Part shown: positions 9,817-44,088 of the stretch, one piece after another
Layout of the letters: every line of letters begins with the position of its first letter
How positions within the stretch are numbered: position 1 is the first letter of the stretch
From: Actinomycetota bacterium
GTDB taxonomy: Bacteria > Actinomycetota > Acidimicrobiia > IMCC26256 > PALSA-610
NCBI GenBank assembly: GCA_005773635.1
Contig: SXHN01000054.1
Coordinates: 1-64,000, forward strand
Reading direction: 5' to 3'
DNA length: 64,000 nt
The notes under the pieces: model-generated
Databases searched by the model: none
Seen by the model: the letters and a program-made list of their open reading frames with translations, nothing else
What the model was told of the DNA's origin: nothing
Position numbers and translations under genes: made by a program

Positions 9817-9938
9817 CCCAAACTTTGCGTACAGTGGTGCAGTAATACGCAGGTCAGAGGGCCAAGACGGTTGCTGGGTCACGTTTCGCGAGCCTCGACT
9901 TTGAATTAGGGGTCCACTTCGGCCACAATAGATGGCCG

Positions 9939-10630: not shown

Positions 10631-12703
10631 CTACCGAGACGTGAGCTCGTAACCAGGATCGACTCGCTTGAGCTGGGCAATCAGCGCACCGGCGTTCGTG
10701 ACTGGAAGTTGGCATGTCGAGTGCTGGCACACGTATGCAGTTGAGTTGCTGTCCACGAGGCCGCGACCCGACAACAAGTAGACGGTCGAAGCCACTTGGG
10801 ACGCCATGTCTGGATTCGTATGGAGCACAACGCGATTGCGGGACAATCGCGTGTAGACGACCTCGAACAGCTTCCGCGTCGATATTTCGTCGGGGTCACC
10901 TGCGATCACGACTTCGACTGACGGAAAGGCGATCCGCGCTGCTGCTTCGAGCGCGTACCCAAAGCCGGTCGGATGCCGAACGAACAGTGTCGCGACACTC
11001 GCAATACATTCCGAACCAATTCGTAGGTATCGGGCGTTGTCTGTGATGGTGGAGAGACGCAACAACGCATTGGCCGCGAGCGAGTTCTCCGCAGGCGTCG
11101 CACTGTCCATCTGATCCTTTGCCCGCACGATGAGCCGCTCGGCATCGCTCCCAGTAGTGAAAAAGCCACCATTCACATCATCGTGAAAGAGCTCGATCAA
11201 TTCATCGGCTACCTCACATGCGGCTGGGAGCCATTCGATGCAGTCATATTCGCACAATGATGCGAGCGCCTCTGCGAGCGCGGCGTAGTCCTGCGCGTAC
11301 GCCAGCAGCCGGGCCTTGCCGTTGAGGCCCCAACCGTCGGTCGGCGCGGCATCTGCTTGCCACGTGCGCAGGAAGCGACCGTCGGCGCGGCGCAGGTTCG
11401 TCATCAGGAACTCGGTGGTGCGGCGGGCTTCGTGAATCCATCGCGGCTCTGCAAATGCCGCACCCGCCTCGCAGAGAGCACGGACCATCATCGCATTCCA
11501 CGCCAGCAGGACCTTGTCGTCACAGCCTGGGGTCACCCGTAACGCTCGACGTTCGCGCAGTTGACCAAGAGCCTCTAGGAGTGCGGGCGAAGGCTCGTGC
11601 TCTCGGTCCGCGAGATGCAGCACGTTGCCAGAAAAGTTCGAGTGCGGATCAACGAAGTTGCCCCGCTCACTCACCCCGTAAAATTTGGAAAACTCGAAAT
11701 ATTGCTCACCCAAGGCTTCGCGAAGTTCGGCGTCACTCCACGCGTAGTACTTGCCTTCGATTCCCTCGCTATCTGCGTCGAACGCGCTGAAGAAACCTCC
11801 ATCAGGATGGCGGAGTTCGTGCATGGCCCACTCGATCGTCTCGGCAACGATGCGACGGTAACGATCGTTGCGCGTGCGAAGCCATCCGTCGGTGTAGGCA
11901 CGAATCAACAGAGCGTTGTCGTACAGCATCTTTTCGAAATGCGGAATACACCACTCGTTGTCTGTCGAGTATCGAGCAAATCCGCCGCCAACTTGGTCGT
12001 AGATACCCCCGCACGCCATCGCGTCCAAGGTTGTAGTGAGCATCGCGGTGTCGGGGTCGTGGCGCGCGAGCAGAGACAGGGTTGCAGCTTGCGGGAATTT
12101 CGGTGCGCGCCCAAAGCCACCCCATTCCACGTCGAAATCCCTGCGCAACGTCGCGATTGCGTTGTCGAATGTTTCGGCTGTGACCGATTCGTGCGGCGTC
12201 TGCGGCAATTCAACTGTGATTGCCGCTGTCAGGTTCGTCGCGAGTTCATCTACCTCATCACGTCGTTCATGCCAGGCTTGCGAGATGGCTTCTGCGACGC
12301 GAGTAAATGACGGCAAACCGTGGCGATCCTGCGCAGGAAAATACGTGCCCGCATGGAACGGGGCGCCGTCGGGTGTGAGCCACACACTCATCGGCCAACC
12401 CCCGCTACCAGTCATCGTCTGGGTTGCCTGCATATAGATGGCATCGATGTCAGGGCGTTCCTCGCGGTCGACCTTGATATTGACAAACAACCGATTCATG
12501 ATTGCGGCCGTGGTGGTCGACTCGAAACTCTCGTGAGCCATGACGTGACACCAATGGCAAGCGGAGTAGCCAACCGACAAAAAGACCGGCACACCACGGT
12601 CGCGAGCAGCGGCGAACGCCTCATCGCCCCAGGGATACCAATCGATTGGATTGTCGGCGTGTTGGCGCAAATAGGGGCTTGTTTCCGCCGCCAGACGATT
12701 CAC
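10631..12703 (-). CDS. Thioredoxin domain-containing protein, YyaL/spermatogenesis-associated 20 family
   Basis: A 690-residue protein starting [30 protein letters not shown], the family signature. The thioredoxin-like (DUF255) domain carries [18 protein letters not shown] (CxxC-type motif) and [15 protein letters not shown], then a large (alpha/alpha)6 part ([46 protein letters not shown]) like N-acylglucosamine epimerase folds. Cellular role not established. I chose GTG 12703 because it overlaps the upstream stop in a GTGA and because family members begin there. The frame stays open to 12814 only through the repeat at 12707-12787. Confidence 0.85.
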
Positions 12704-17026: not shown

Positions 17027-17976
17027 ATCGCTGTCACGGTTGCGCAATATGCGGCGTCGGTGCGATGCACCGTAAAGCCGAGTCGCCGATACAAAGCGAT
17101 GGCATTGTGATTGTCGGCCGCCACATAGAGCATCGCGGTAGAAATTCCACGCACATGAAGTGCGCGCAGTCCCAGGCCGGCGAGTGAGTATCCGAGGCCC
17201 CGGCCTTGTGCTTCAGGCGTCACGCCGATCACGTATATCTCGCCGAGTCTCGGTTCGCCGATGTAGGTATTCGCGTCGTGAATCTTGAGCCAATTGAACG
17301 CAATGATCGGGCCGTCGGGTTCGTCGCGTGCGACGAGAAACAACTCTGGGTCAAACCAAGGCTCTTCCATGCGTTGTCGCAATGCCAACATGTCCCAGCC
17401 CGACTGTTCAGGGTGGGTCCGAAATGCGGCGTTGTTGGCCACAAGCCATGCTTCGGCGTCGGTGTCGCTAGAAAACGTGGTGATGTTCGGCATAGGTGCG
17501 TGCTGAGGGTCGAAGGAGATCGGGAGCGATACCCGAAGTTGGTATTGCTCCCGATCGCGCGTAAAACCGGCACGAGCGGCGATGTGATCATCGGCTCGGG
17601 TCGCACCAGCCCGCCACCACGTCACGAGCCCGCCGCCGCGAGCCGCGATTTCGCTGGACGCGCCCATGAGAAGCTCTGACAGGGTTGTGTGCGGGGCTTC
17701 AACGCCGATGTTCCATTCGAGACGCACAGTCTCGGCCGGTGTATCGCCACTATTGGGTGCGACTGGTCGGTTGGTGCGCACCAGCATCGCGTGGAGGTAC
17801 CCATCGGGGGCAAGGACGTCGAATGATTCCGGGGTCGGGTTACGCCGGTCGCCCATCAAGGAGTCATTGAATTGTGAGGGAGCATCTCGGACGAACTCGG
17901 CGCCCACAAGGGCGGCATCGGCGCTGGCGAGAGCGCGGTCGCGCCGAAGTTGCGGAGGGGTGGTGGAATGCGGCAC
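17023..17976 (-). CDS. mshD: Mycothiol synthase MshD
   Basis: A 317-residue enzyme that acetylates the cysteinyl amine of Cys-GlcN-Ins, the last step of mycothiol synthesis. It has two GNAT domains: a weak N-terminal one (PDGYLHAMLVRTNRPVAP..., VTWWRAGATRADDHIAARAGF) and a C-terminal catalytic one (FLVARDEPDGPIIAFNWLKIHD, GEIYVIGVTPEAQGRGLGYSLAGLGLRALHVRGI, MLYVAADNHNAIALYRRLGFTVHRTDAAY). QGRGLG is the acetyl-CoA loop. GTG 17976 is chosen because a TACCGT hexamer lies 6 nt upstream and because longer starts run into nth. It marks the host as an actinobacterium. Confidence 0.93.
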   Translation of the reverse strand: MPHSTTPPQLRRDRALASADAALVGAEFVRDAPSQFNDSLMGDRRNPTPESFDVLAPDGYLHAMLVRTNRPVAPNSGDTPAETVRLEWNIGVEAPHTTLSELLMGASSEIAARGGGLVTWWRAGATRADDHIAARAGFTRDREQYQLRVSLPISFDPQHAPMPNITTFSSDTDAEAWLVANNAAFRTHPEQSGWDMLALRQRMEEPWFDPELFLVARDEPDGPIIAFNWLKIHDANTYIGEPRLGEIYVIGVTPEAQGRGLGYSLAGLGLRALHVRGISTAMLYVAADNHNAIALYRRLGFTVHRTDAAYCATVTAI

Positions 17977-33731: not shown

Positions 33732-35263
33732 CTGGATTTGACCGCCGCGGTGCCAGTGCGCACCTGCAGTCGAAATGCCGCACCTTTCTCGTGGTCATCG
33801 AGGAGCGTGCACGTTCCGCCCATTGCGTTGGCGAGTTCGGCGACGATCGTCAAACCGAGGCCCGTCCCGACGGCTCTTCCAGGGGTTTTGCGAGAGGTGT
33901 AGAGACGTTCGAACACCTTGACGCGCTCGCGTTCCTCGATGCCAGGGCCATCGTCGACTACATCGACGACGACGAGGTCTGCGCGATGTGTCAAGGTGAC
34001 ATTTACGTGGTGTTGCGCATACTTCAAAGCGTTTTCAACCAGGTTGGCGACTGCCTGGCCGAGGCGTTCGGGGTCGAGGTCGCACGCCACGGTGGTGTGC
34101 GTTGCGTTGAAATCGAGCACGAGGCTGCTGGCCTCAGCCCGCGGTTGGAACGCTTCCACAATTGTGGAGACGACTTCAACAGCATCACACGGTTGAGCAC
34201 GCAAGGTGAATTCGCGGCTCTCAAGCCTCGATAGATCGAGGAGATCACGCACGAGTCGTTCAAGGCGATTGGCTTCCGCCGTGATGACTTCGGCCGCTCG
34301 TTTGCTTGCTACAGGATCGGTAGTGTCAATCGTGCCATCGGCCAAAGCTTCTGAGTATCCGCGAATCGATGTGAGCGGCGTTCGGAGATCGTGACTCACA
34401 GCCTGAAGGAAGCTGCGTTCAGCATTGCGAGCAACATCCAAGTCGTGGGCGAGGCGGTTCATCGTCATGGCAACGTCGGCTAACTCTCGGTCGGCATCGG
34501 CATCAACGTGAACCCGAGCCGAAAGATCCCCGGCCGCGAGGGAATATGCAGCGGCTTCAATAGCGAGCAACGGGCGAGTAAGGCGTCGACTCAACCACGC
34601 CGCGATCATCACGCAAGCACCTAGTGCTACGACTGCTGAAAAGAGAAAGGCCGTAGTTGCCCTGCGAACGCCGGCACGATCGATGGGTTCGCTTAGAATG
34701 ACGATCGGAACTGCGAAGCGCAAAGCGGGGATATCGATCGAAGCTGCGAGGTATGCGGTGTCGTTGCGTCTCAGCGTGCTGGTTGCCCCTTTTGCCACTT
34801 CGCGAAGTTGGAGATCAGCGGCGGTGATCCCATCGGGAAGTGCGACGAGTGCTTCGGCGCCGATTTCAGCGCCCACGAGAACTTGCTCTCGCCGCGGGTC
34901 GCGCCGCCCGACCGCGTTGAGTTCCGCGTAGGTCAGGACCTTGCCGTTACTCATGAAGACCACGCGAGCGTCGGCAACCCGAGCCGTAGCGCGAAGTTGG
35001 TTCAGAAATGCGGCGATCCCCAGCGTTTGCCTCGTCGCCTTGGCAGAGCCAGGGGCTTGCATCCGTTCAACGATGTTGGCCGAAACGGCGGCGATGTTAT
35101 CGGCCTTATGGCGGATCTCGTCGGTCGCCGACTGTTCTGCGCCGCGATTGATGAAGTACGCGGTCGATGTGCCTGCGAGGGTCAGTGCGCCGGCCGCTAC
35201 AAGTACGAAGCTGAAGAGTAACCGATTGCGAAGCGTGCCGCGCCGCGCTTGCAAGGGCTTCAT
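33728..35263 (-). CDS. Two-component sensor histidine kinase
   Basis: A 511-residue membrane kinase. TM1 is about 13-36 and TM2 about 203-224, with a 165-residue extracytoplasmic sensor between them. Then come HAMP (SRRLTRPLLAIEAAAYSLAAGDLSARVHV), the phosphoacceptor H291 (FLQAVSHDLRTPLTSIRGYSEA), and a HATPase domain with N box NLVENALKYA, G1 DDGPGIEERE, F box FERLY and G2 GTGLGLTIVAELANAMGG. The signal is unknown. It overlaps the regulator gene by 4 nt and is transcribed after it, so they form a cognate pair. Confidence 0.93.
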   Translation of the reverse strand: MKPLQARRGTLRNRLLFSFVLVAAGALTLAGTSTAYFINRGAEQSATDEIRHKADNIAAVSANIVERMQAPGSAKATRQTLGIAAFLNQLRATARVADARVVFMSNGKVLTYAELNAVGRRDPRREQVLVGAEIGAEALVALPDGITAADLQLREVAKGATSTLRRNDTAYLAASIDIPALRFAVPIVILSEPIDRAGVRRATTAFLFSAVVALGACVMIAAWLSRRLTRPLLAIEAAAYSLAAGDLSARVHVDADADRELADVAMTMNRLAHDLDVARNAERSFLQAVSHDLRTPLTSIRGYSEALADGTIDTTDPVASKRAAEVITAEANRLERLVRDLLDLSRLESREFTLRAQPCDAVEVVSTIVEAFQPRAEASSLVLDFNATHTTVACDLDPERLGQAVANLVENALKYAQHHVNVTLTHRADLVVVDVVDDGPGIEERERVKVFERLYTSRKTPGRAVGTGLGLTIVAELANAMGGTCTLLDDHEKGAAFRLQVRTGTAAVKSS

Positions 35264-35940
35264 CGTCGATGTTCGAGCCGGTAGCCAATGCCTCGAACCG
35301 TCGCGATTTCCACTGCCGTGTTGATCTTTTTTCGTATTTGCGCAATGTGCACATCAACGGTGCGGGGATCTCCAAACCAGTCGTAGCCCCAAATACCATC
35401 GAGCAGCTGTTGGCGTGAAAGTGCCCGACCAGGACGCTCCGCGAGAAAGTGCAAAAGTTCAAACTCTTTCGTAGTGAACGCCACAACCGCGTCGCGTACG
35501 CGTACCTCGCGTCGTCCGATATCTACGATCACCTCGCCAACCTGCAAGAGTTCAGCGGTTGAGCCTCCTGCCCCGTCGGTCCGGCGCAGCACAGCCTTCA
35601 CGCGCGCAACAAGTTCCGCCGGCGAGAATGGCTTGGTGATGTAGTCGTCGGCACCAAGTTCGAGGCCGAGCACTCGGTCTACCTCGCTGTCGCGGGCGGT
35701 CAGAAAAATGATAGGGATCGGAGAATGGGCGCGGAGGCGGCGACATACTTCAAGACCATCAAAGTCTGGCAACCCCACGTCGAGGATGACCAAGCGGGGG
35801 CGATCGCGATCAACCGCCGCCAAGGCACCGGCGCCGCAGTTGGCCTTCAGCACGCGGTAGCCCTCGCGAGCGATATAGAGCTCGACGAGATCGGCGATGT
35901 TCGCCTCGTCGTCGACCACCAGAATTGTGCCCCGTTCCAT
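35260..35940 (-). CDS. OmpR/PhoB-family response regulator
   Basis: A 226-residue regulator. The receiver domain has the acidic pair DDE at 10-12, phosphoacceptor D54 (VILDVGLPDFDGLE), the T of FLTARDS and the lysine of DDYITKPFSPAELVARV. The C-terminal winged helix (VRDAVVAFTTKEFELLHFLAERPGRALSRQQLLDGIWGYDWFGDPRTVDVHIAQIRKKI) binds DNA. The ATG at 35940 has GAGAGGT just upstream. It forms an operon with the histidine kinase. Target genes cannot be told; no direct-repeat operator was obvious upstream. Confidence 0.95.
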   Translation of the reverse strand: MERGTILVVDDEANIADLVELYIAREGYRVLKANCGAGALAAVDRDRPRLVILDVGLPDFDGLEVCRRLRAHSPIPIIFLTARDSEVDRVLGLELGADDYITKPFSPAELVARVKAVLRRTDGAGGSTAELLQVGEVIVDIGRREVRVRDAVVAFTTKEFELLHFLAERPGRALSRQQLLDGIWGYDWFGDPRTVDVHIAQIRKKINTAVEIATVRGIGYRLEHRR

Positions 35941-36035
35941 ACCTCTCTATCGTCCCAAATCCTTATTGTCGAAGCAGTGATGTATGTGTGAGGGATTTGT
36001 GAAGTATTGAAGGTCTTGTGTCTAGCCTGGGCCAG

Positions 36036-36041
36036 TATCCT
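36036..36041 (+). promoter_or_regulatory. Putative -10 (TATCCT) for trpC-trpF
   Basis: TATCCT ends 9 nt before ATG 36051. The gap CGACGAATC has no Shine-Dalgarno sequence. The upstream TTGTGT (36016-36021) is only 14 nt away, so a -35 is uncertain. No leader peptide with tandem Trp codons was seen. Confidence 0.35.
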
Positions 36042-36050
36042 CGACGAATC

Positions 36051-36845
36051 ATGGGCATTCTCGACGAAATTCTCGCCACGAAACGTGATGAGGTCACCGT
36101 GTTGCGTCACCCTGCGACTCGGAAGTTATTGCAGCGCACCGCGCTCGCGGCATCGCAACCTCGAGATTTTGCACAAAGCTTGCGCCACGAAGACGGTTCG
36201 TTAGCCGTCATTGCCGAGTGCAAACGCCGGTCCCCGAGTAAAGGGGAATTGTCGCCGGATCTCAACGCTGAGGTCACTGCACAGATGTACGAACGAGGGC
36301 TAGCGAGTGCCATGAGCGTGCTCACCGATGCACCGTACTTCGGCGGCAGCATTGAGGATTTGCAGTTGGCACGTGCGCATTGCGGGCTTCCAGTGCTGCG
36401 CAAAGACTTTGTTATCGATGAAATCCAGGTGTACGAAACCCGCGCGGTTGGTGCCGATGCCATGCTGTTGATCGTTGCTGCCCTTGACGATGCCGCATTG
36501 CACGACCTGCACACGCTAGGTCGAGAGCTAGGTCTTGGTGTGCTGGTCGAGACCCACGACGAATCCGAACTTGATCGAGCGTTGGCTTGCGGAGCCGAAG
36601 TTATTGGCGTCAATAGTCGAAGTTTGCAGACCTTCGGTGAAGACCTTTCGATTGCAGAAGCGTTGAGGAGTCTGATTCCTTCGGACTGTGTCGCCGTCGC
36701 AGAATCTGCAGTTCGCTCGATTGCCGACGCACAACGCATGGCTGATGCCGGATTCGATGCGGTCTTGGTGGGCGAAGCTTTCGTACGCAATGACCATCCG
36801 GAGTTGCTGTGCCGCGACATGGCAAGCTGCACGGTGCGGAGGTAA
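36051..36845 (+). CDS. trpC: Indole-3-glycerol-phosphate synthase
   Basis: A 264-residue (beta/alpha)8 barrel. MGILDEILATKRDEV is the family N-terminus, which fixes ATG 36051. Catalytic blocks: LAVIAECKRRSPSKGEL (catalytic Lys), MSVLTDAPYFGGS, PVLRKDFVIDEIQVYE (second Lys), GVLVETHDESEL (catalytic Glu), IGVNSRSLQTF and AVAESAVRS. Monofunctional: no TrpF fusion, and trpF follows 5 nt after the stop. Separated from trpE by about 5 kb. Confidence 0.95.
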   Translation: MGILDEILATKRDEVTVLRHPATRKLLQRTALAASQPRDFAQSLRHEDGSLAVIAECKRRSPSKGELSPDLNAEVTAQMYERGLASAMSVLTDAPYFGGSIEDLQLARAHCGLPVLRKDFVIDEIQVYETRAVGADAMLLIVAALDDAALHDLHTLGRELGLGVLVETHDESELDRALACGAEVIGVNSRSLQTFGEDLSIAEALRSLIPSDCVAVAESAVRSIADAQRMADAGFDAVLVGEAFVRNDHPELLCRDMASCTVRR

Positions 36846-36850
36846 CGAAC

Positions 36851-37567
36851 ATGTGGGTCAAAATTTGCGGCATCACCAATGAAGACGACGCGCTCTTGGC
36901 TACGGCCTTGGGAGCCGATGCGCTGGGTTTCGTCTTCGCACCGAGTCGTCGCCAAGTCGATCTCGACACGGTGCGTGACATTGTGAAGCGTCTTCCAAAC
37001 GAGATCGTGACCGTCGGAGTGTTTCGTAACGAACGCCCAGAGCGCGTGTCGGAAATCGTCAACAAGCTTGGCCTCCACGGCGCGCAGCTTCACGGACATG
37101 AACCGCTGCGCGAGGTGCGTTGGATCCGTCAACGGGTGCAGTTTGTGATCCAGGCCTTCGCAGCGGGCGACCCCACGATTCAAGCTGCTGCGAATGGCCC
37201 CGCCGACATTCTCCTGCTCGACGGTGTGAATCCAGGTGGCGGCAAGGTGTTCGATTGGCACCTCGCTGAAAGTGTGCCCGGCGGAGTGCGGCTCCTGCTC
37301 GCCGGAGGTCTCACGCACGACAATGTCGAGGATGCGATTCACAAGGTGAGGCCCTGGGGCGTCGACGTTTCTACTGGCGTAGAAGCTGGGCCCGGCCGTA
37401 AAGACCCTCGCAAGTTACGACTGTTCATTGAAGCTGCGAAAGCTACTGAGACCGAAGACGAATACGTGGAGCCACGTGCCACGCATCGGCCCGACGATGG
37501 CGCAGGCAGCAGCTTCGCCGACCTCGACGATGAACCCCGGCCCTTTAATTGGGAGATTGATTCGTAG
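36851..37567 (+). CDS. trpF: Phosphoribosylanthranilate isomerase
   Basis: A 238-residue protein. WVKICGITNEDDALLATALGADALGFVF holds the catalytic cysteine, VGVFRNE and GLHGAQLHGHE follow, LLLDG carries the catalytic aspartate, and LLLAGGLTHDNV and VDVSTGVEAGPGRKDPRKLRLFIEA close the barrel. After the barrel comes a charged tail of about 37 residues (EDEYVEPRATHRPDDGAGSS..., ending FNWEID S) not present in typical TrpF. The presence of trpF contrasts with many actinobacteria that use PriA for this step. Confidence 0.93.
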   Translation: MWVKICGITNEDDALLATALGADALGFVFAPSRRQVDLDTVRDIVKRLPNEIVTVGVFRNERPERVSEIVNKLGLHGAQLHGHEPLREVRWIRQRVQFVIQAFAAGDPTIQAAANGPADILLLDGVNPGGGKVFDWHLAESVPGGVRLLLAGGLTHDNVEDAIHKVRPWGVDVSTGVEAGPGRKDPRKLRLFIEAAKATETEDEYVEPRATHRPDDGAGSSFADLDDEPRPFNWEIDS

Positions 37568-37723
37568 CGGGTTCCGGCCTCGGTTTGGCCGCGGAGATCA
37601 CAAAATGCTCACAATGGCTGATGAGATCTTCATGCGGCGCTGATCTGATCACCACATGGTTCTTCGATAGTTCTGTTGTCGCCACACGACGACGAACTCA
37701 CCGATCCCACAAAGGAACCTGTC

Positions 37724-38245
37724 ATGTTGAAACGTCTCGTCACTACAACCATCCTCGGTGCAACCTTGGTATCAGGTACGACACTCGTCGGAACGACTGC
37801 TTCCGCGTCGCCTGCGTCAGCAACGCAATGCCCGTCGGGTACGTGGAATAGCCGGACCCTTGGTGTGCCAGCGGGTGCGAAACCAGGCATGAGCGGCGTC
37901 GCGGTGTTTCGCAAGACTGACAACGATGTATTTAGCCTGCGTATGAGCACCGCTCGACCGGGAGCTGTGTACGTCGGTTCGATTTCCGTCACCGAAGGTG
38001 CCATCAGCTACCGAGCGATTCGTACCGAACGCGGCGATGTGATCCGACAGGTCTCACCACACAAGATCGTTTTCAAGATGACGAACCGCGGTCATCTCGA
38101 CGGTCTCGACATCCGAGTGCCGTGCAGCGCGTCAGTGAAATTTGGCGTAACTGTCAACGGACACAGGGTTGCGCTGAACCGAATTGTGCTCGGGTCTGGC
38201 GAAACCCACCCGACGAGCAATCCGTTCACCGAGACCAAAGCCTGA
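37724..38245 (+). CDS. Secreted protein of unknown function
   Basis: A 173-residue protein with a clear Sec signal: MLKRLVTTTILGATLVSGTTLVG, cleavage likely after TTASASPASA. The mature part of about 140 residues is beta-rich (VYVGSISVTEGAISYRAI, HKIVFKMTNRGHLDGLDIRV, VKFGVTVNGHRVAL), with two cysteines (TQCPSG and VPCSAS) that could form a disulfide. No family recognised. AAAGGAAC 7 nt upstream of ATG 37724 is a good ribosome site. Lies between trpF and trpB and is followed by a strong hairpin. Confidence 0.7.
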   Translation: MLKRLVTTTILGATLVSGTTLVGTTASASPASATQCPSGTWNSRTLGVPAGAKPGMSGVAVFRKTDNDVFSLRMSTARPGAVYVGSISVTEGAISYRAIRTERGDVIRQVSPHKIVFKMTNRGHLDGLDIRVPCSASVKFGVTVNGHRVALNRIVLGSGETHPTSNPFTETKA

Positions 38246-38305
38246 ATTCCATACTCCAGTGGTTCCTGGCTCTTGGCTTCTGATCTAGGGCGACTGGGCC
38301 ACGAG

Positions 38306-38351
38306 ACAACGTTGCATGCCCCGGCTATTGCGCCGGGGCATGCAACGTTGT
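38306..38351 (+). terminator. Perfect 20-bp hairpin between the secreted-protein gene and trpB
   Basis: Left arm 38306-38325 (ACAACGTTGCATGCCCCGGC) is exactly complementary to right arm 38332-38351, with a 6-nt loop (TATTGC). No T-run follows in either direction. It is probably a terminator of the T-less actinobacterial type for the upstream gene. Its right edge is only 39 nt from the trpB ATG, so it must sit against, or inside, the trpB promoter region. Confidence 0.7.
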
Positions 38352-38357
38352 GGTCGG

Positions 38358-38363
38358 TAGAGT
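38358..38363 (+). promoter_or_regulatory. Possible -10 (TAGAGT) for trpB-trpA
   Basis: TAGAGT lies 6 nt after the hairpin and 27 nt before ATG 38391. It would give a short leader that includes the GAGGGA ribosome site. The -35 region would fall inside the right arm of the hairpin. Confidence 0.3.
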
Positions 38364-38390
38364 GTCGCCTTCGCTACTGAGGGAATTGTG

Positions 38391-39629
38391 ATGAACGCTC
38401 CATCTCGCGGCACTGCCGTAGAACTCGATCCTCCAGGACCTGAACCAACGACCGACGGTCGCTTTGGTGATTTTGGGGGTCGCTACGTGCCGGAATCGAT
38501 CATTCCGGCGCTTGAAGAGCTTGAGTCGGCGTTTCGTACCTCGTGGCATGACGATGAATTTCGACTGCAATACGCCACGCTGCTGAGTGAATACGCCGGA
38601 CGTCCAACGCCGGTTACCGAGTGCCACCGCCTGTCGGATCGGCTGGGCGTGCGAGTTCTGTTGAAGCGAGAAGATCTGACCCATACCGGATCGCACAAAA
38701 TCAACAACGTGTTGGGTCAGGCTCTGCTCACTCGGCGTATGGGGAAACAGCGCGTCATTGCTGAAACCGGCGCCGGTCAACATGGTGTCGCGACTGCGAC
38801 CGCAGCAGCACTCTTCGGGCTTGATTGCACGGTTTACATGGGTGCGGTCGACGTTGAACGACAAGCTCTCAATGTTTGGCGAATGAAGTTGTTGGGCGCT
38901 GAGGTCGTGCCGGTCACGAGCGGCAGCGCAACGCTCAAGGACGCCGTGAATGATGCAATGCGTGAGTGGGTTGCCTCCGTCGAAACCACGCACTACTGCT
39001 TGGGCTCGGTCATGGGGCCGCATCCGTTTCCCTGGTTGGTCCGTGAATTTCAACGGGTGGTCGGCGACGAGGCCCGCAAACAATGTCGCGCAATTCTCAA
39101 CGGCAAAGATCCCCAGTACGTGGTTGCCTGCATTGGCGGGGGATCGAACGCGATGGGCACCTTCGCCGGGTTCGTGACCCAGTGCCCCGATTCAGTGTTG
39201 ATCGGTGTCGAAGCGGGTGGTCTCGGTCTCGAATCGGGCCACCACGGGGCTGCGGTGAATCGGGGCGTGCCCGGCATCGTGCACGGTATGCGTAGCTTGT
39301 TTCTTCAAGATGAGCACGGCCAGGTAGTGGAAGCGACGTCGATTAGCGCAGGGCTCGATTATCCCGGGATCGGCCCGGAACATGCGCACCTCGCGGAGCT
39401 CGGTATGGCGCGGTACGAATACGCCACCGACGATGAAGCGGTCGCCGGTTTTCAACTACTCGCCGAAACCGAAGGCATCGTGCCGGCACTGGAGCCGGCG
39501 CACGCGATTGGATGGCTCGCACGTGAGGCCGGACGATCGATTCCGAGCGGGTCGACGGTGTTATTGACGCTGTCGGGACGCGGCGACAAAGACGCGGCCC
39601 AGCTGATGGACCGGCTGGGGGAACTATGA
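38391..39629 (+). CDS. trpB: Tryptophan synthase beta chain
   Basis: A 412-residue PLP enzyme condensing indole and serine. FGDFGGRYVPESIIPALEELE is the TrpB N-terminus, the PLP lysine is K103 in REDLTHTGSHKINNVLGQALL, AETGAGQHGVATAT holds the catalytic glutamate, CIGGGSNAMGTFAGF is the phosphate-binding loop, and LLTLSGRGDKD the C-terminus. ATG 38391 follows GAGGGAATTGTG. A standard TrpB1 type, coupled to trpA by a 4-nt overlap. Confidence 0.96.
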   Translation: MNAPSRGTAVELDPPGPEPTTDGRFGDFGGRYVPESIIPALEELESAFRTSWHDDEFRLQYATLLSEYAGRPTPVTECHRLSDRLGVRVLLKREDLTHTGSHKINNVLGQALLTRRMGKQRVIAETGAGQHGVATATAAALFGLDCTVYMGAVDVERQALNVWRMKLLGAEVVPVTSGSATLKDAVNDAMREWVASVETTHYCLGSVMGPHPFPWLVREFQRVVGDEARKQCRAILNGKDPQYVVACIGGGSNAMGTFAGFVTQCPDSVLIGVEAGGLGLESGHHGAAVNRGVPGIVHGMRSLFLQDEHGQVVEATSISAGLDYPGIGPEHAHLAELGMARYEYATDDEAVAGFQLLAETEGIVPALEPAHAIGWLAREAGRSIPSGSTVLLTLSGRGDKDAAQLMDRLGEL

Positions 39630-40408
39630 CAGTCCACCTCGAAGCCCACTTGCGGGCGCAGCGCGCCACTGGGCGCAAGCTCTTGGTTCCCTACGTCACG
39701 GGTGGTCTTGGTAAAGATTGGATCGATGTGGTGCGCGCCTGCGCTGCCAATGGAGCCGATGCTGTAGAAATCGGGATTCCGTTCTCGGATCCGATGATGG
39801 ACGGCAAGACAATCCAAGAGGCGTCGCAACGCGCCCTCGACCTCGGCGCGACGCCGGAGAGCGTCATCAGCCAGGCCGCGGATATCGACGTGGGAATTCC
39901 GCTCGCCGTGATGACCTACTACAACCTTGTGTATCGCATGGGCCATGATCGTTTCGCAGCGTCGCTGGAAGCCAGTGGTATTTCTGGGTGCATTCTGCCG
40001 GATCTACCCCTCGATGAACTGCAGCGAGGTGGCTTTGATACAGCCGCCGCGGAACACAACGTCGAGTGCGTGCTCCTCGCGTCGCCCACCACCACCGACG
40101 CTCGGCTGCTCGATATTTGCCGGAGTGCGCGGGGGTTTGTTTATGGCGTTTCCTTGATGGGTATCACCGGCGAGCGCACCTCGTTGGCGGGCAGCGCCAA
40201 GATCATGGGGGAGCGGATGAAGGCCGTCACGGATCGCCCTGCGTTGCTTGGTGTCGGGATTTCGACTCCCGAGCAGGCCCATGAGGCTGCGCAGTACGCC
40301 GACGGCGTCATTGTTGGTTCGGCGTTGGTGCGCCGGTTGCTGCAGTCGGGCGGCCCCGATGAGGCTGGCGCCTTCGTTGCTGAACTTCGGGCCGCGCTCG
40401 ACGCGTGA
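39626..40408 (+). CDS. trpA: Tryptophan synthase alpha chain
   Basis: A 260-residue (beta/alpha)8 barrel that splits indole-3-glycerol phosphate. Catalytic E48 and D59 lie in ADAVEIGIPFSDPMMDG. VMTYYNLVYRMG, GCILPDLPLDE, FVYGVSLMGITGERTSL and PALLGVGISTPEQA are family blocks. ATGA overlap with trpB. A gap of 114 nt separates it from motA. Confidence 0.95.
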   Translation: MTVHLEAHLRAQRATGRKLLVPYVTGGLGKDWIDVVRACAANGADAVEIGIPFSDPMMDGKTIQEASQRALDLGATPESVISQAADIDVGIPLAVMTYYNLVYRMGHDRFAASLEASGISGCILPDLPLDELQRGGFDTAAAEHNVECVLLASPTTTDARLLDICRSARGFVYGVSLMGITGERTSLAGSAKIMGERMKAVTDRPALLGVGISTPEQAHEAAQYADGVIVGSALVRRLLQSGGPDEAGAFVAELRAALDA

Positions 40409-40522
40409 GTCCCCACAGTTAGGGCACGCCTCGCAGATATCGGTGCGAATCTCATCTCCAGGTGATCCGTTTGGGTGTCGATACCACTCACGGCGGTAAT
40501 CCCACACGGAGGCGGGAACAAG

Positions 40523-41296
40523 ATGGAAAAAGGAACGATGGTCGGCCTTGCAATGGCCGTGGTGGGGGTCTTTGTCGGCGCTGTGCTCAAGGGCGCCGAC
40601 GTCGTGATGCTCTTTACCAACGTGCCGGCCATTCTGATTGTGTTCGTGGCAGGCCTAGGCGCTGCGATTATGTCGCACCCATTTGGCGAGACCCAGAACG
40701 TGGGGAAGTACTTCTCTATCGCGATGAAGGGCATTCCCGAACACAACACGCAACAGACGATTGACACCATCGTTGATCTCACGAACCGTGCCCGCGCTGA
40801 AGGCCTCCTCGCGCTCGAAGAAGCCGCGAAGACCATTGATGACCCCTTCTTGAAAAAGGGCTTGCAACTCGCGGTGGATGGCACCGATCATGACGCGCTG
40901 AAAAAGACGCTACGCGCCGAAATCACCCAAATGAAAGAACGACACAAAGCGGGTCAGGCCTTCTTCACCAACGCAGGCGTGTTCGCACCGACTTTCGGAA
41001 TTATTGGTGCTGTGTTCGGTCTGATGGCCACAATGAGCCACCTCGATGATCCTGCATTGATCGGTCACGGTATTACCGCGGCATTCGTTGCCACGTTCTG
41101 GGGTGTGTTCTTGGCGAACGCCATCTACTTGCCGTTTGCGAACAAACTCAAGCGTTTCGACGTGTATGAAGTAGCGCACATGGAGCTTGTGATGGAGGGG
41201 ATCATGGCGATCCAAGCGGGCACGAGCCCTCGGGTCGTCGAGGAAATCTTGAGCGCCCACATTCCGCCGTCGGCCCGTGTTGACAAGGCTGCCTAG
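40523..41296 (+). CDS. motA: Flagellar motor stator protein MotA
   Basis: A 257-residue stator subunit with about four membrane segments: MVGLAMAVVGVFVGAVLKG, AILIVFVAGLGAAIMSHPF, AFFTNAGVFAPTFGIIGAVFGLMATMS and GITAAFVATFWGVFLANAIYLPFANKLK. The cytoplasmic loop contains ALEEAAKTIDDPFLKKGLQLAVDGTD and the conserved PTFGIIGAV. ATG 40523 follows CGGAGGCGGGAACAAG, a strong ribosome site. No other flagellar gene is in the window. It precedes motB by 2 nt. Confidence 0.9.
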   Translation: MEKGTMVGLAMAVVGVFVGAVLKGADVVMLFTNVPAILIVFVAGLGAAIMSHPFGETQNVGKYFSIAMKGIPEHNTQQTIDTIVDLTNRARAEGLLALEEAAKTIDDPFLKKGLQLAVDGTDHDALKKTLRAEITQMKERHKAGQAFFTNAGVFAPTFGIIGAVFGLMATMSHLDDPALIGHGITAAFVATFWGVFLANAIYLPFANKLKRFDVYEVAHMELVMEGIMAIQAGTSPRVVEEILSAHIPPSARVDKAA

Positions 41297-41298
41297 CG

Positions 41299-42234
41299 AT
41301 GAGCCACGACGCCGACGATGAACCGCATGAAGAACATGAAGAACACGTCAACCACGAGGCTTGGGTTATCCCGTACGCCGACTTGTTGACACTGCTCATG
41401 GCTATGTTCATTGCGCTGTTCGCGATGTCTTCGGTGGATCAAGCTAAGTTCAAAAAGGTTGCTCTTGGCTTCAACGATGCGCTTGGCGGCGAGAAGTTGA
41501 CGAGCGGTGTATTCGCTGGATCAAAAGCAGACTCCGTCAACGGCGGCAATGGGAAAGGCGGATCCAGCAACGACTTGCAAGAAGGAAAGGAACGGGGCAC
41601 AGAGTTCTTCGAAAAGATTGCCGACCAACAAGTCGCACTTGAGCAGCGTAAAAATGCGGAGCAGGACACGCTTGAGGAGGTCAAAGACCTCATTGAGGGT
41701 GAGGCCGCGAAGGCTGGTCTCTCCGACAAGCTGACGTTTGAGTTGCAGGAACGCGGACTTGTTGTGCGCGTACTTACCGACAAGTTGGTGTTTCGTTCCG
41801 GTGATGCAACGCTTCAGGCCCAAGGCCGAGAGCTATTGCAACTTGTGGGCGCGGTATTGAAGGATCTCGAAAACCCGCTCTACATCGAAGGTCACACAGA
41901 CACTGATCCCGTCGGCCCAAACTCGGTCTTCAAATCAAACTGGGGGTTGTCGACGGCTCGGGCCGAAGAGGTGCTGTTGTTTCTCCGCGATGTCAGCGGC
42001 ATCGACCAGGGACGTTTACGACCGACCGGCTGGTCGGATACCCACCCAATCGCAAGCAACGATACCGAAGCCGGCAAAGCCACCAACCGACGAGTCGAAA
42101 TCGTCGTGCAATCCTTGATCATTGATCAACTCTTAGCGGAGAACGACCTCGGCACGAAATCACTGCCCAAATCTGATCCCGCAAAACCCAACCTCGACGA
42201 GATCGAAAAGCCGGGAGACATCGCACCCCACTAG
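41299..42234 (+). CDS. motB: Flagellar motor stator protein MotB (OmpA-like)
   Basis: A 311-residue protein. After a charged N-terminus, the plug/TM segment WVIPYADLLTLLMAMFIALFAMSS carries the proton-binding aspartate (YAD). The periplasmic part ends in an OmpA/peptidoglycan-binding domain: LYIEGHTDTDPVGPNSVFKSNWGLSTARAEEVLLFL, RLRPTGWSDTHPIASNDTEAGKATNRRVEIVV, with the D and R that bind diaminopimelate. Together with MotA it forms the proton-driven stator. A long Gly/Lys/Glu-rich linker (about 70-140) follows the TM. Confidence 0.9.
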   Translation: MSHDADDEPHEEHEEHVNHEAWVIPYADLLTLLMAMFIALFAMSSVDQAKFKKVALGFNDALGGEKLTSGVFAGSKADSVNGGNGKGGSSNDLQEGKERGTEFFEKIADQQVALEQRKNAEQDTLEEVKDLIEGEAAKAGLSDKLTFELQERGLVVRVLTDKLVFRSGDATLQAQGRELLQLVGAVLKDLENPLYIEGHTDTDPVGPNSVFKSNWGLSTARAEEVLLFLRDVSGIDQGRLRPTGWSDTHPIASNDTEAGKATNRRVEIVVQSLIIDQLLAENDLGTKSLPKSDPAKPNLDEIEKPGDIAPH

Positions 42235-42282
42235 ATGAGTTGAGGATGGGCGCATCTCCTCTAGATTCATTGGGATGCACGC

Positions 42283-44088
42283 ATGCCCTCGCAATCCACG
42301 GCGGAGGAATCCGAGACCGTGACGCCGGGGCAAACGAGGCGTTGGTGCATGCCCGTGGTGCTTGGCCTGCTACTGCTTCCGGTGGCGGTTGTCATTGTGC
42401 GCCTTATTGGCCGTGATCATCCCGCAATGAACGGCGACGACGCACTGATCGAACTTCGCACCCGGGACGTGTTCACTCGCAATACTCCATTGTTGGGGAG
42501 CTATCAGCGGTACGGCTGGAATCAAGCAGGCCCGCTGTATTTTTATCTCCTAGCGATTCCGTATCGTCTCTTCGGGCAGTCATTCACGACGATTCAAATC
42601 AGTGTTGTGGTGATGAATTGCGCCGCGGCAATCGCGACGATTCTGATTATGCGCCGGCTGCACGGCGACGCTGCGGCCGCCGTGGCTGCCGCGCTGATCG
42701 CGGTCGCTTTCCACGCGCTGTCAATGCGCACGTTGACGGATCCGTGGGAGCCCAGCATTTCTGTCATGCTGTTGGTGATGCTCGCTGTGGTTGCCTACGA
42801 GGCATCCACTGGCAACGTGCGGAGTTGGTTCGCCACAGTGCTGGTCGCGTCCCTGCTGGCGCAGGCGTACGCATCAGTGACGACCATTGCGATCGCGCTT
42901 GCCGTTATTGGAATAGCGATAGGCATCGTTCGTCTGCGACGAACTGAGGTTGCGCAGTCGATCGCGAAGCCGGTCTTAGCGCTTGTAGCGCTCGCAATAC
43001 TGCTGTGGTCGCCGTCGATCATCGAACAGCTCTCGAATTCGCCTGGAAACGTGCGAGCCGCGTTGTCGTATTTCGGTGAGAACCGTGAAACCCTGGGTGG
43101 CCGCGATGCGCTCGGTGCGCTGCGAATTGAGAGCGGCCTGCATGCTCCGTGGATTACAAACTCGGTTCCGAAGGAAACATTTTCGCCATTCGTCGATGTC
43201 GGAGCTGGCCCGGTATTGCCAATCGCATTCATCCTGTTTGCAGTTGCGGGTGTCGTTGCGTGGCGTCGTCGCGAGTGGTTGGCTTTACAGCTCGTCACGC
43301 TCGTCGCAGCGTTTGGCATCGTCGGATTACTGTCGCTGCGTACTTTGACGCGACCGTTCTTCGTGTGGATCCTCATGCCCTATCGAGCATTTGGGCTCTT
43401 GCTGTGGCTCGCGTCGTTCGTTGTGCTGTTCGCGACCGTACCGAGGGCAAGAAATCTTGGTTGTGCGGTGGCGATAGCGGTGCTCGTTGGCGTCGGTGCG
43501 CTTTCTACGGCGGATGCAGCCCGGGCGCACCTCGGAGCGGATAGCGGCCCGGCGGCGTTTGACGCTGCGGCGGCGCGCGTGTCCGCGGAATTACGGGCTC
43601 TCGATGCTCCGATCCTGGTGAGGTCGGAAGTCGGTGGTCAGTTGTTGACGCCCTCGGGTTACGCCCGTGACGAGACCGCCGTGGCGTTGTTGTTGAACGG
43701 CGTTGCGGTGGTCGTGGACGTTGACTCGCGGAATCGTTTCGGGCCGCAGCGTGCGCATCCGGAGCTCGCACAGTACGAACTTCGATTAATGAACCACAAG
43801 GATCCGATGCCAAAGGGGTTTCGTGAGCTCACGGTCGTCGATCCACTTGGGTCCACTCGTGGCGACCGTGAAGGGTTGGCGCAGTCGGTGACACGTCGGT
43901 GTGTTCTCGCCAACGGCACGCAGCCGCCACCGAGCGAGGACGCTTCGGCGAGCCTGCGGTGGTTAGAGAATTGTTCGCAGCGCGACGGCGAAGCCAAGCG
44001 ACAGATCGGCGTCCTGCTTGACGACTTTGAGGATCTCCCTCGGATCAGCTTCCGACTCGGCGCGATCGCCGCGACCGGTGGATTGTGA
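42283..44088 (+). CDS. Polytopic membrane protein, GT-C glycosyltransferase-like
   Basis: A 601-residue protein with roughly 10-11 membrane segments in the first 400 residues. After TM1 (VVLGLLLLPVAVVIVRLIG) the first extracytoplasmic loop reads HPAMNGDDALIELRTRDVFTRNTPLLGSYQRYGWNQAGPLYFYLLAIPYRLFG. An acidic pair in this loop (GDD) is the hallmark of GT-C glycosyltransferases that use polyprenyl-phosphate sugars. The C-terminal 150 residues are a soluble extracytoplasmic domain. The donor and acceptor are unknown, but the neighbouring rhamnose genes fit envelope glycosylation. ATG 42283 lies 15 nt after a TAGATT hexamer. It is convergent with rmlD, with 1 nt between the stops. Confidence 0.65.
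   Translation: MPSQSTAEESETVTPGQTRRWCMPVVLGLLLLPVAVVIVRLIGRDHPAMNGDDALIELRTRDVFTRNTPLLGSYQRYGWNQAGPLYFYLLAIPYRLFGQSFTTIQISVVVMNCAAAIATILIMRRLHGDAAAAVAAALIAVAFHALSMRTLTDPWEPSISVMLLVMLAVVAYEASTGNVRSWFATVLVASLLAQAYASVTTIAIALAVIGIAIGIVRLRRTEVAQSIAKPVLALVALAILLWSPSIIEQLSNSPGNVRAALSYFGENRETLGGRDALGALRIESGLHAPWITNSVPKETFSPFVDVGAGPVLPIAFILFAVAGVVAWRRREWLALQLVTLVAAFGIVGLLSLRTLTRPFFVWILMPYRAFGLLLWLASFVVLFATVPRARNLGCAVAIAVLVGVGALSTADAARAHLGADSGPAAFDAAAARVSAELRALDAPILVRSEVGGQLLTPSGYARDETAVALLLNGVAVVVDVDSRNRFGPQRAHPELAQYELRLMNHKDPMPKGFRELTVVDPLGSTRGDREGLAQSVTRRCVLANGTQPPPSEDASASLRWLENCSQRDGEAKRQIGVLLDDFEDLPRISFRLGAIAATGGL

Follow-up and report, generated by a model that had tools for sequence, protein, structure and literature searches.

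A perfect hairpin without a T-run before trpB as the likely 3'-end signal of a probable secreted-protein gene in an Actinomycetota bacterium

Hairpin-forming RNA 3' ends that lack a U-tract have been described in mycobacteria and Streptomyces (PMC12288462, PMC8355165, PMC8269248, PMC12207403), with the mycobacterial I-shaped terminators going back to Unniraman et al. 2001 and Ahmad et al. 2020, both as cited in PMC12288462. For Streptomyces, the accessible sections of one study report the longest and most stable hairpins with few U residues, as well as transcript ends lying at medians of 66–76 nt after the stop codon (PMC12207403). Published actinobacterial trp attenuators, as far as the available part of their description extends, combine a poly-U stretch with a leader peptide in which UGG codons stand in pairs or triplets (PMC1262725). 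Our literature search returned nothing on the trp operon of Acidimicrobiia, nor on a terminator–promoter overlap of the kind considered below.

The window, by which we mean the whole analysed stretch of 64,000 nt from the genome of an Actinomycetota bacterium, carries a trp cluster oriented in one direction and consisting of trpC, trpF, a 173-aa open reading frame (ORF) for a probable secreted protein, trpB and trpA. Between the secreted-protein ORF and trpB lies a long hairpin-forming sequence, and comparison with related loci makes it probable that this hairpin constitutes the 3'-end signal of the secreted gene (37724–38245), either as a T-less ('I-shaped') terminator or as a 3'-end former. 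The features of the region are as follows.

36809..37567, + strand: trpF (phosphoribosylanthranilate isomerase)
37724..38245, + strand: probable secreted-protein gene, 173 aa, between trpF and trpB (signal-peptide-like start judged by eye)
38306..38325, + strand: 5' arm of the hairpin (inverted-repeat search)
38326..38331, + strand: loop TATTGC (sequence and inverted-repeat search)
38332..38351, + strand: 3' arm of the hairpin (inverted-repeat search); also spans the expected −35 position for TAGAGT at spacers of 16–18 (deduced from spacing)
38358..38363, + strand: TAGAGT, −10-like (TANNNT), candidate trpB promoter starting 33 nt before the trpB ATG (motif class recurrent before trpB)
38391..39629, + strand: trpB (tryptophan synthase beta; TIGR00263, 564.5 bits, cut-off 392.45)
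39626..40408, + strand: trpA

The ORF list begins trpB one codon earlier, with a GTG at 38388, while the ATG at 38391 is used throughout this work. The secreted-protein ORF at 37724–38245 matched no Pfam or NCBIfam family. In many relatives (e.g. G002, G005, G009, G012, G018 and G025), a second TrpB-like match with 34–38% identity is found approximately 0.8–3 kb upstream of trpB, and the window has no such second match upstream of its trpB.

The initial annotation had described a perfect 20-bp hairpin with a 6-nt loop and no T-run, located 39 nt before trpB, and both the inverted-repeat search and the sequence bear this out: the arms at 38306–38325 and 38332–38351 are 100% complementary (20/20 pairs) with 6 nt between them, the ten bases following the stem (GGTCGGTAGA) contain no T-run, and 39 nt separate the end of the stem from the ATG at 38391. 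The stem begins 60 nt past the stop of the secreted-protein ORF, whose stop codon ends at 38245. Folded alone, the 46-nt hairpin has a predicted energy of −41.6 kcal/mol, and a 151-nt region yielded a folding z of −4.98, with none of 200 shuffled sequences being equally stable. In the predicted fold the stem dominates, with 17 of the 20 stem pairs reaching probabilities of at least 0.97 and the outer three ranging from 0.76 to 0.91. A perfect stem of 20 bp is far beyond chance, the longest perfect stems (loop 3–8) in 20 first-order Markov copies of the window measuring 8–12 bp. It is the longest perfect hairpin in the window, where the remaining nine listed inverted-repeat pairs are imperfect, and also the longest of the eight perfect stems of at least 11 bp (loop 3–8) in 464 kb of the same genome, a sample made up of the window and 20 further stretches. 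A scan of the window against Rfam at gathering score returned tRNA only, so the hairpin matches no Rfam family. A second, weaker inverted repeat was recorded at 17518–17556 of the window, with 16-nt arms that are 94% complementary and 7 nt apart.

Two comparisons across the order, one anchored on trpB and one on the secreted gene, were used to establish with which neighbour the hairpin is associated; both take related genomes as separate loci and include no test of independent events. On the trpB side, the sample comprised the best 33 loci from 57 genomes of the order with any trpB match, the start in L024 being set by hand. In the 150 nt preceding trpB, the highest-scoring stem reached 35.5–53 in four of these loci (G000, G001, G003 and G005) and did not exceed 26.5 in any of the other 29, and it is exactly in the four high-scoring loci that trpB directly follows a relative of the secreted gene. 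Of the 29 loci lacking the secreted gene, 26 have a trpF that either stops no more than 140 nt short of trpB or slightly overlaps it; in the remaining three, trpF was not located or the trpB start was mislocated. Among the named loci examined outside the order, L077, L085 and L088 have stems of 10–15 bp before trpB although no secreted gene is present. These stems are formed by another palindrome that occurs there in pairs, so a hairpin-forming sequence before trpB is not per se unique to the secreted-gene arrangement. In several Actinomycetes a palindrome lies near the start of trpB: the exact sequence GTTCTAGAAC occurs twice in L077 and L085 and once in L078, L089 and L114, and near variants precede trpB in L078, L083 and L088. 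This palindrome looks operator-like and is unrelated to the hairpin of the window.

On the secreted-gene side, a search of 58 genomes of the order gave relatives of the gene in 14 (E ≤ 0.001), and in 11 of these 14 loci a GC-rich stem with no fewer than 11 pairs and a score of at least 27 occurs within 100 nt after the stop codon. The post-stop stem is unmatched by any other window of its own locus in eight of the 14, while in L117, L125 and L127 it is equalled or exceeded by other windows, and the stem of L125 is borderline at 27.0 against 26.5 for the best trpB-side control. The three loci without a notable stem are L123, L128 and L129, of which L128 and L129 match only weakly and contain in-frame stops. 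The distance from stop to stem is 9–34 nt in the ten other stem-bearing relatives versus 60 nt in the window. Four of the 14 loci have trpB following the secreted gene. About 1.7–1.8 kb separate the secreted gene from trpB in G011 and G012, and the hairpin is found at the secreted gene (L120 and L119, respectively), with no comparable stem before trpB (L023 and L020, respectively); in G007, G008, G031, G032 and G040 other sequence follows the secreted gene and the stem is still present. As regards gene placement, the secreted gene is part of the trp cluster in four genomes (G000, G001, G003 and G005) and lies near trpB in two more (G011 and G012), all six belonging to one family, while in the other genomes its relatives are located elsewhere in the genome. 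From these comparisons we conclude that the hairpin is linked to the secreted gene at its 3' end and not to trpB and, since it tracks this gene also where trpB is not adjacent, it would be a 3'-end hairpin of the secreted gene, in agreement with the earlier proposal that it ends a secreted-protein gene.

The position of the hairpin directly before trpB, along with the existence of actinobacterial trp attenuators (PMC1262725, in its available part), led us to consider whether a leader transcript might sense tryptophan and the stem end the transcript before trpB. We regard such attenuation as highly improbable. A search for leader ORFs of 5–45 codons ending between 38246 and 38345 gave two candidates that share one end, each with one Trp codon and neither with tandem Trp codons; no T-run follows the stem; the fold is dominated by the stem itself; 29 of the 33 trpB loci of the order have no comparable stem; and the likely trpB promoter lies at the downstream edge of the hairpin. 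The classical attenuators predicted in Corynebacterium and Streptomyces likewise place a hairpin before a trp gene (PMC1262725, same part); the locus described here differs from them in that it lacks both poly-U and a leader ORF containing tandem Trp codons, and in that the hairpin is not conserved with trpB. No antiterminator was apparent in the predicted fold.

The palindrome may also serve as an operator, bound by a dimeric protein that regulates either trpB or the secreted gene, and the perfectly palindromic DNA over the likely −35 position of trpB fits this idea. Furthermore, the 14-base core of the arm has 73 matches with up to two mismatches in the genome (both arms included), compared with 50 for the reversed pattern. 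Follow-up of the six nearest other matches among these 73 (0 or 1 mismatch) showed that none of these six forms the hairpin, and on this basis the arm core was not taken to be a repeat element; one of the six, L008, holds a 14-base uninterrupted palindrome. Within the order, no comparable hairpin precedes trpB without the secreted gene, and the sequences in G003 and G005 are unrelated although a hairpin is kept, and we consider an operator unlikely.

Inspection of the arms in relatives, which the initial annotation had recommended for conservation, gave a divided answer, as pairing is largely kept and the letters are not conserved between genera. The stems of G003 and G005 show no visible resemblance to the arms in the window, yet both retain a hairpin. 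In G001, which belongs to the same genus, the core GCCCCGG/CCGGGGC is retained, and in an ungapped comparison with the window outward from this core the first 14 positions all pair, five of them with changes on both sides, while three of the outer four positions are unpaired. This count of two-sided changes depends on the ungapped comparison, because MAFFT, applied to the window and the same-genus hairpins, prefers a 2-nt gap in the 5' arm. Pairing that appears largely preserved while letters change fits a terminator better than an operator. The initial suggestion that the hairpin could be terminator, attenuator and protein-binding site at once therefore stands for its first part, as a terminator or 3'-end former tracking the secreted gene across relatives; the attenuator part is not supported, given the features listed above, and the protein-binding part found no support, given the arms differing between genera and the six nearest arm-like matches without a hairpin.

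The trpB promoter had been expected in or next to the hairpin, an expectation which TAGAGT at 38358–38363 and the recurrence of its motif class support. Actinobacterial −10 elements usually take the form TANNNT. A consensus scan of 35000–43000 gave no site resembling a sigma-70 promoter, where shuffles would lead one to expect 2.4, and for this reason the argument for a −10 element rests on the motif in relatives. In 20 of 26 loci, TANNNT occurs in the 70 nt preceding trpB, versus a mean of 6.7 and a maximum of 14 in 2000 shuffles that preserve letters, not dinucleotides. For GTANNNT, the same distance gave 17 of 26 loci (shuffle mean 2.6, maximum 8, 2000 shuffles), compared with 1 of 26 on the reverse strand. 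When the four hairpin loci are removed, the counts are 16/22 for TANNNT and 15/22 for GTANNNT. The 26 loci are those of the 33 with at least 30 nt between the end of trpF and trpB, the secreted gene lying in between in four of them; left out were two loci without a located trpF, four with a gap below 30 nt, and L024, whose trpB start was mislocated, while L015, with an unchecked trpB start, was kept with no motif counted. The hairpin relatives carry −10-like motifs as well, namely TAAAGT in G001 and TACGCT in G003, and in G005 the candidate TATCAT forms the hairpin loop (L121) and is identical to the −10-like motif of trpB in G026, G030, G031 and G034. It thus seems likely that the trpB promoter lies directly downstream of the hairpin with its −35 position inside the 3' arm. 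With TAGAGT as the −10 element, the trpB transcript would start past the hairpin and would not contain it. Because the −35 position falls into the 3' arm in the window and TATCAT coincides with the loop in G005, one may also conceive of terminator and trpB promoter as one physical module in which transcription of the secreted gene, or a DNA cruciform, directly tunes trpBA; we judge this to be unlikely.

According to the 3'-end signal that we favour, the polymerase would copy the hairpin, whereupon a GC-rich stem of 20 pairs would form in the nascent RNA and stop transcription, or fix the RNA 3' end, without a U-tract. The secreted-gene unit between trpF and trpB would thereby be closed, trpB would start from its own promoter directly downstream (TAGAGT, 38358–38363), and with the promoter in this position the hairpin would also shield it from upstream transcription. 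Termination itself, its intrinsic (not Rho-assisted) mode, the −10-like motif as a promoter and the shielding are what we infer. This is the ordinary explanation, and the locus is most likely a new example of the already described U-less gene-end hairpins. It also illustrates one way in which a biosynthetic operon can accommodate an additional unit, with a secreted gene that has its own end signal and a trpB that apparently has its own promoter.

Whether gene ends of this genome are generally marked by hairpins was assessed with crude gene calls (87 co-directional ends and 366 interiors). A best 50-nt window of −20 kcal/mol or below was found at 20.7% of the ends versus 20.2% of the interiors; at −25 the values were 6.9% versus 3.3%, and at −30, 3.4% versus 0.3%. 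Since gene-end hairpins in general show little excess in this sample, we base our argument on what the relatives show. Terminator-like sites with a T-run showed no excess in 35000–43000 either (7 versus 8.0 expected). Elsewhere in the genome, in L157 (C60), two nearly identical long hairpins without a T-run lie about 1 kb apart (9896–9931 and 10872–10901), the first just past the end of a minus-strand ORF and the second inside the crude call of that ORF.

An alternative that we hold possible, albeit less likely, is that the stop is Rho-dependent or brought about by RNA processing, with the hairpin serving as an exonuclease barrier that protects the RNA 3' end and does not itself terminate. It shares with our preferred reading the element at the 3' end of the secreted gene, and the probabilities of the two overlap. 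The absence of a T-run after the stem would suit it, Rho-dependent termination is reported to dominate in mycobacteria (PMC12288462, in the part available), and the U-less 3' ends of S. clavuligerus may be I-shaped terminators or ends of Rho-terminated transcripts (PMC8269248, likewise). We found no counter-evidence to it, and sequence alone fits intrinsic termination too. The locus offers a clean natural test case for the dispute over hairpin termination without a U-tract in Actinobacteria. That actinobacterial polymerase terminates without a U-tract is disputed, reportedly by Czyz et al. in 2014, and this counts against the reading we favour.

Among the known systems, as far as the available sections of the respective papers describe them, the 'HS-U-lack' ends of S. 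clavuligerus are likewise structured 3' ends without a U-tract, for which intrinsic or Rho-dependent termination is possible; they were mapped on RNA, whereas the hairpin in the window is known from its DNA (PMC8269248). With the I-shaped terminators of mycobacteria, the hairpin has in common a stable GC-rich stem (20 pairs, predicted −41.6 kcal/mol) and no U-tract (PMC12288462). It differs from them in its distance from the stop codon, which is given as 'within 50 bp' for mycobacteria (PMC12288462) and amounts to 60 nt here, near the Streptomyces medians, and in that it abuts the likely promoter of the next gene, with termination at this site being predicted.
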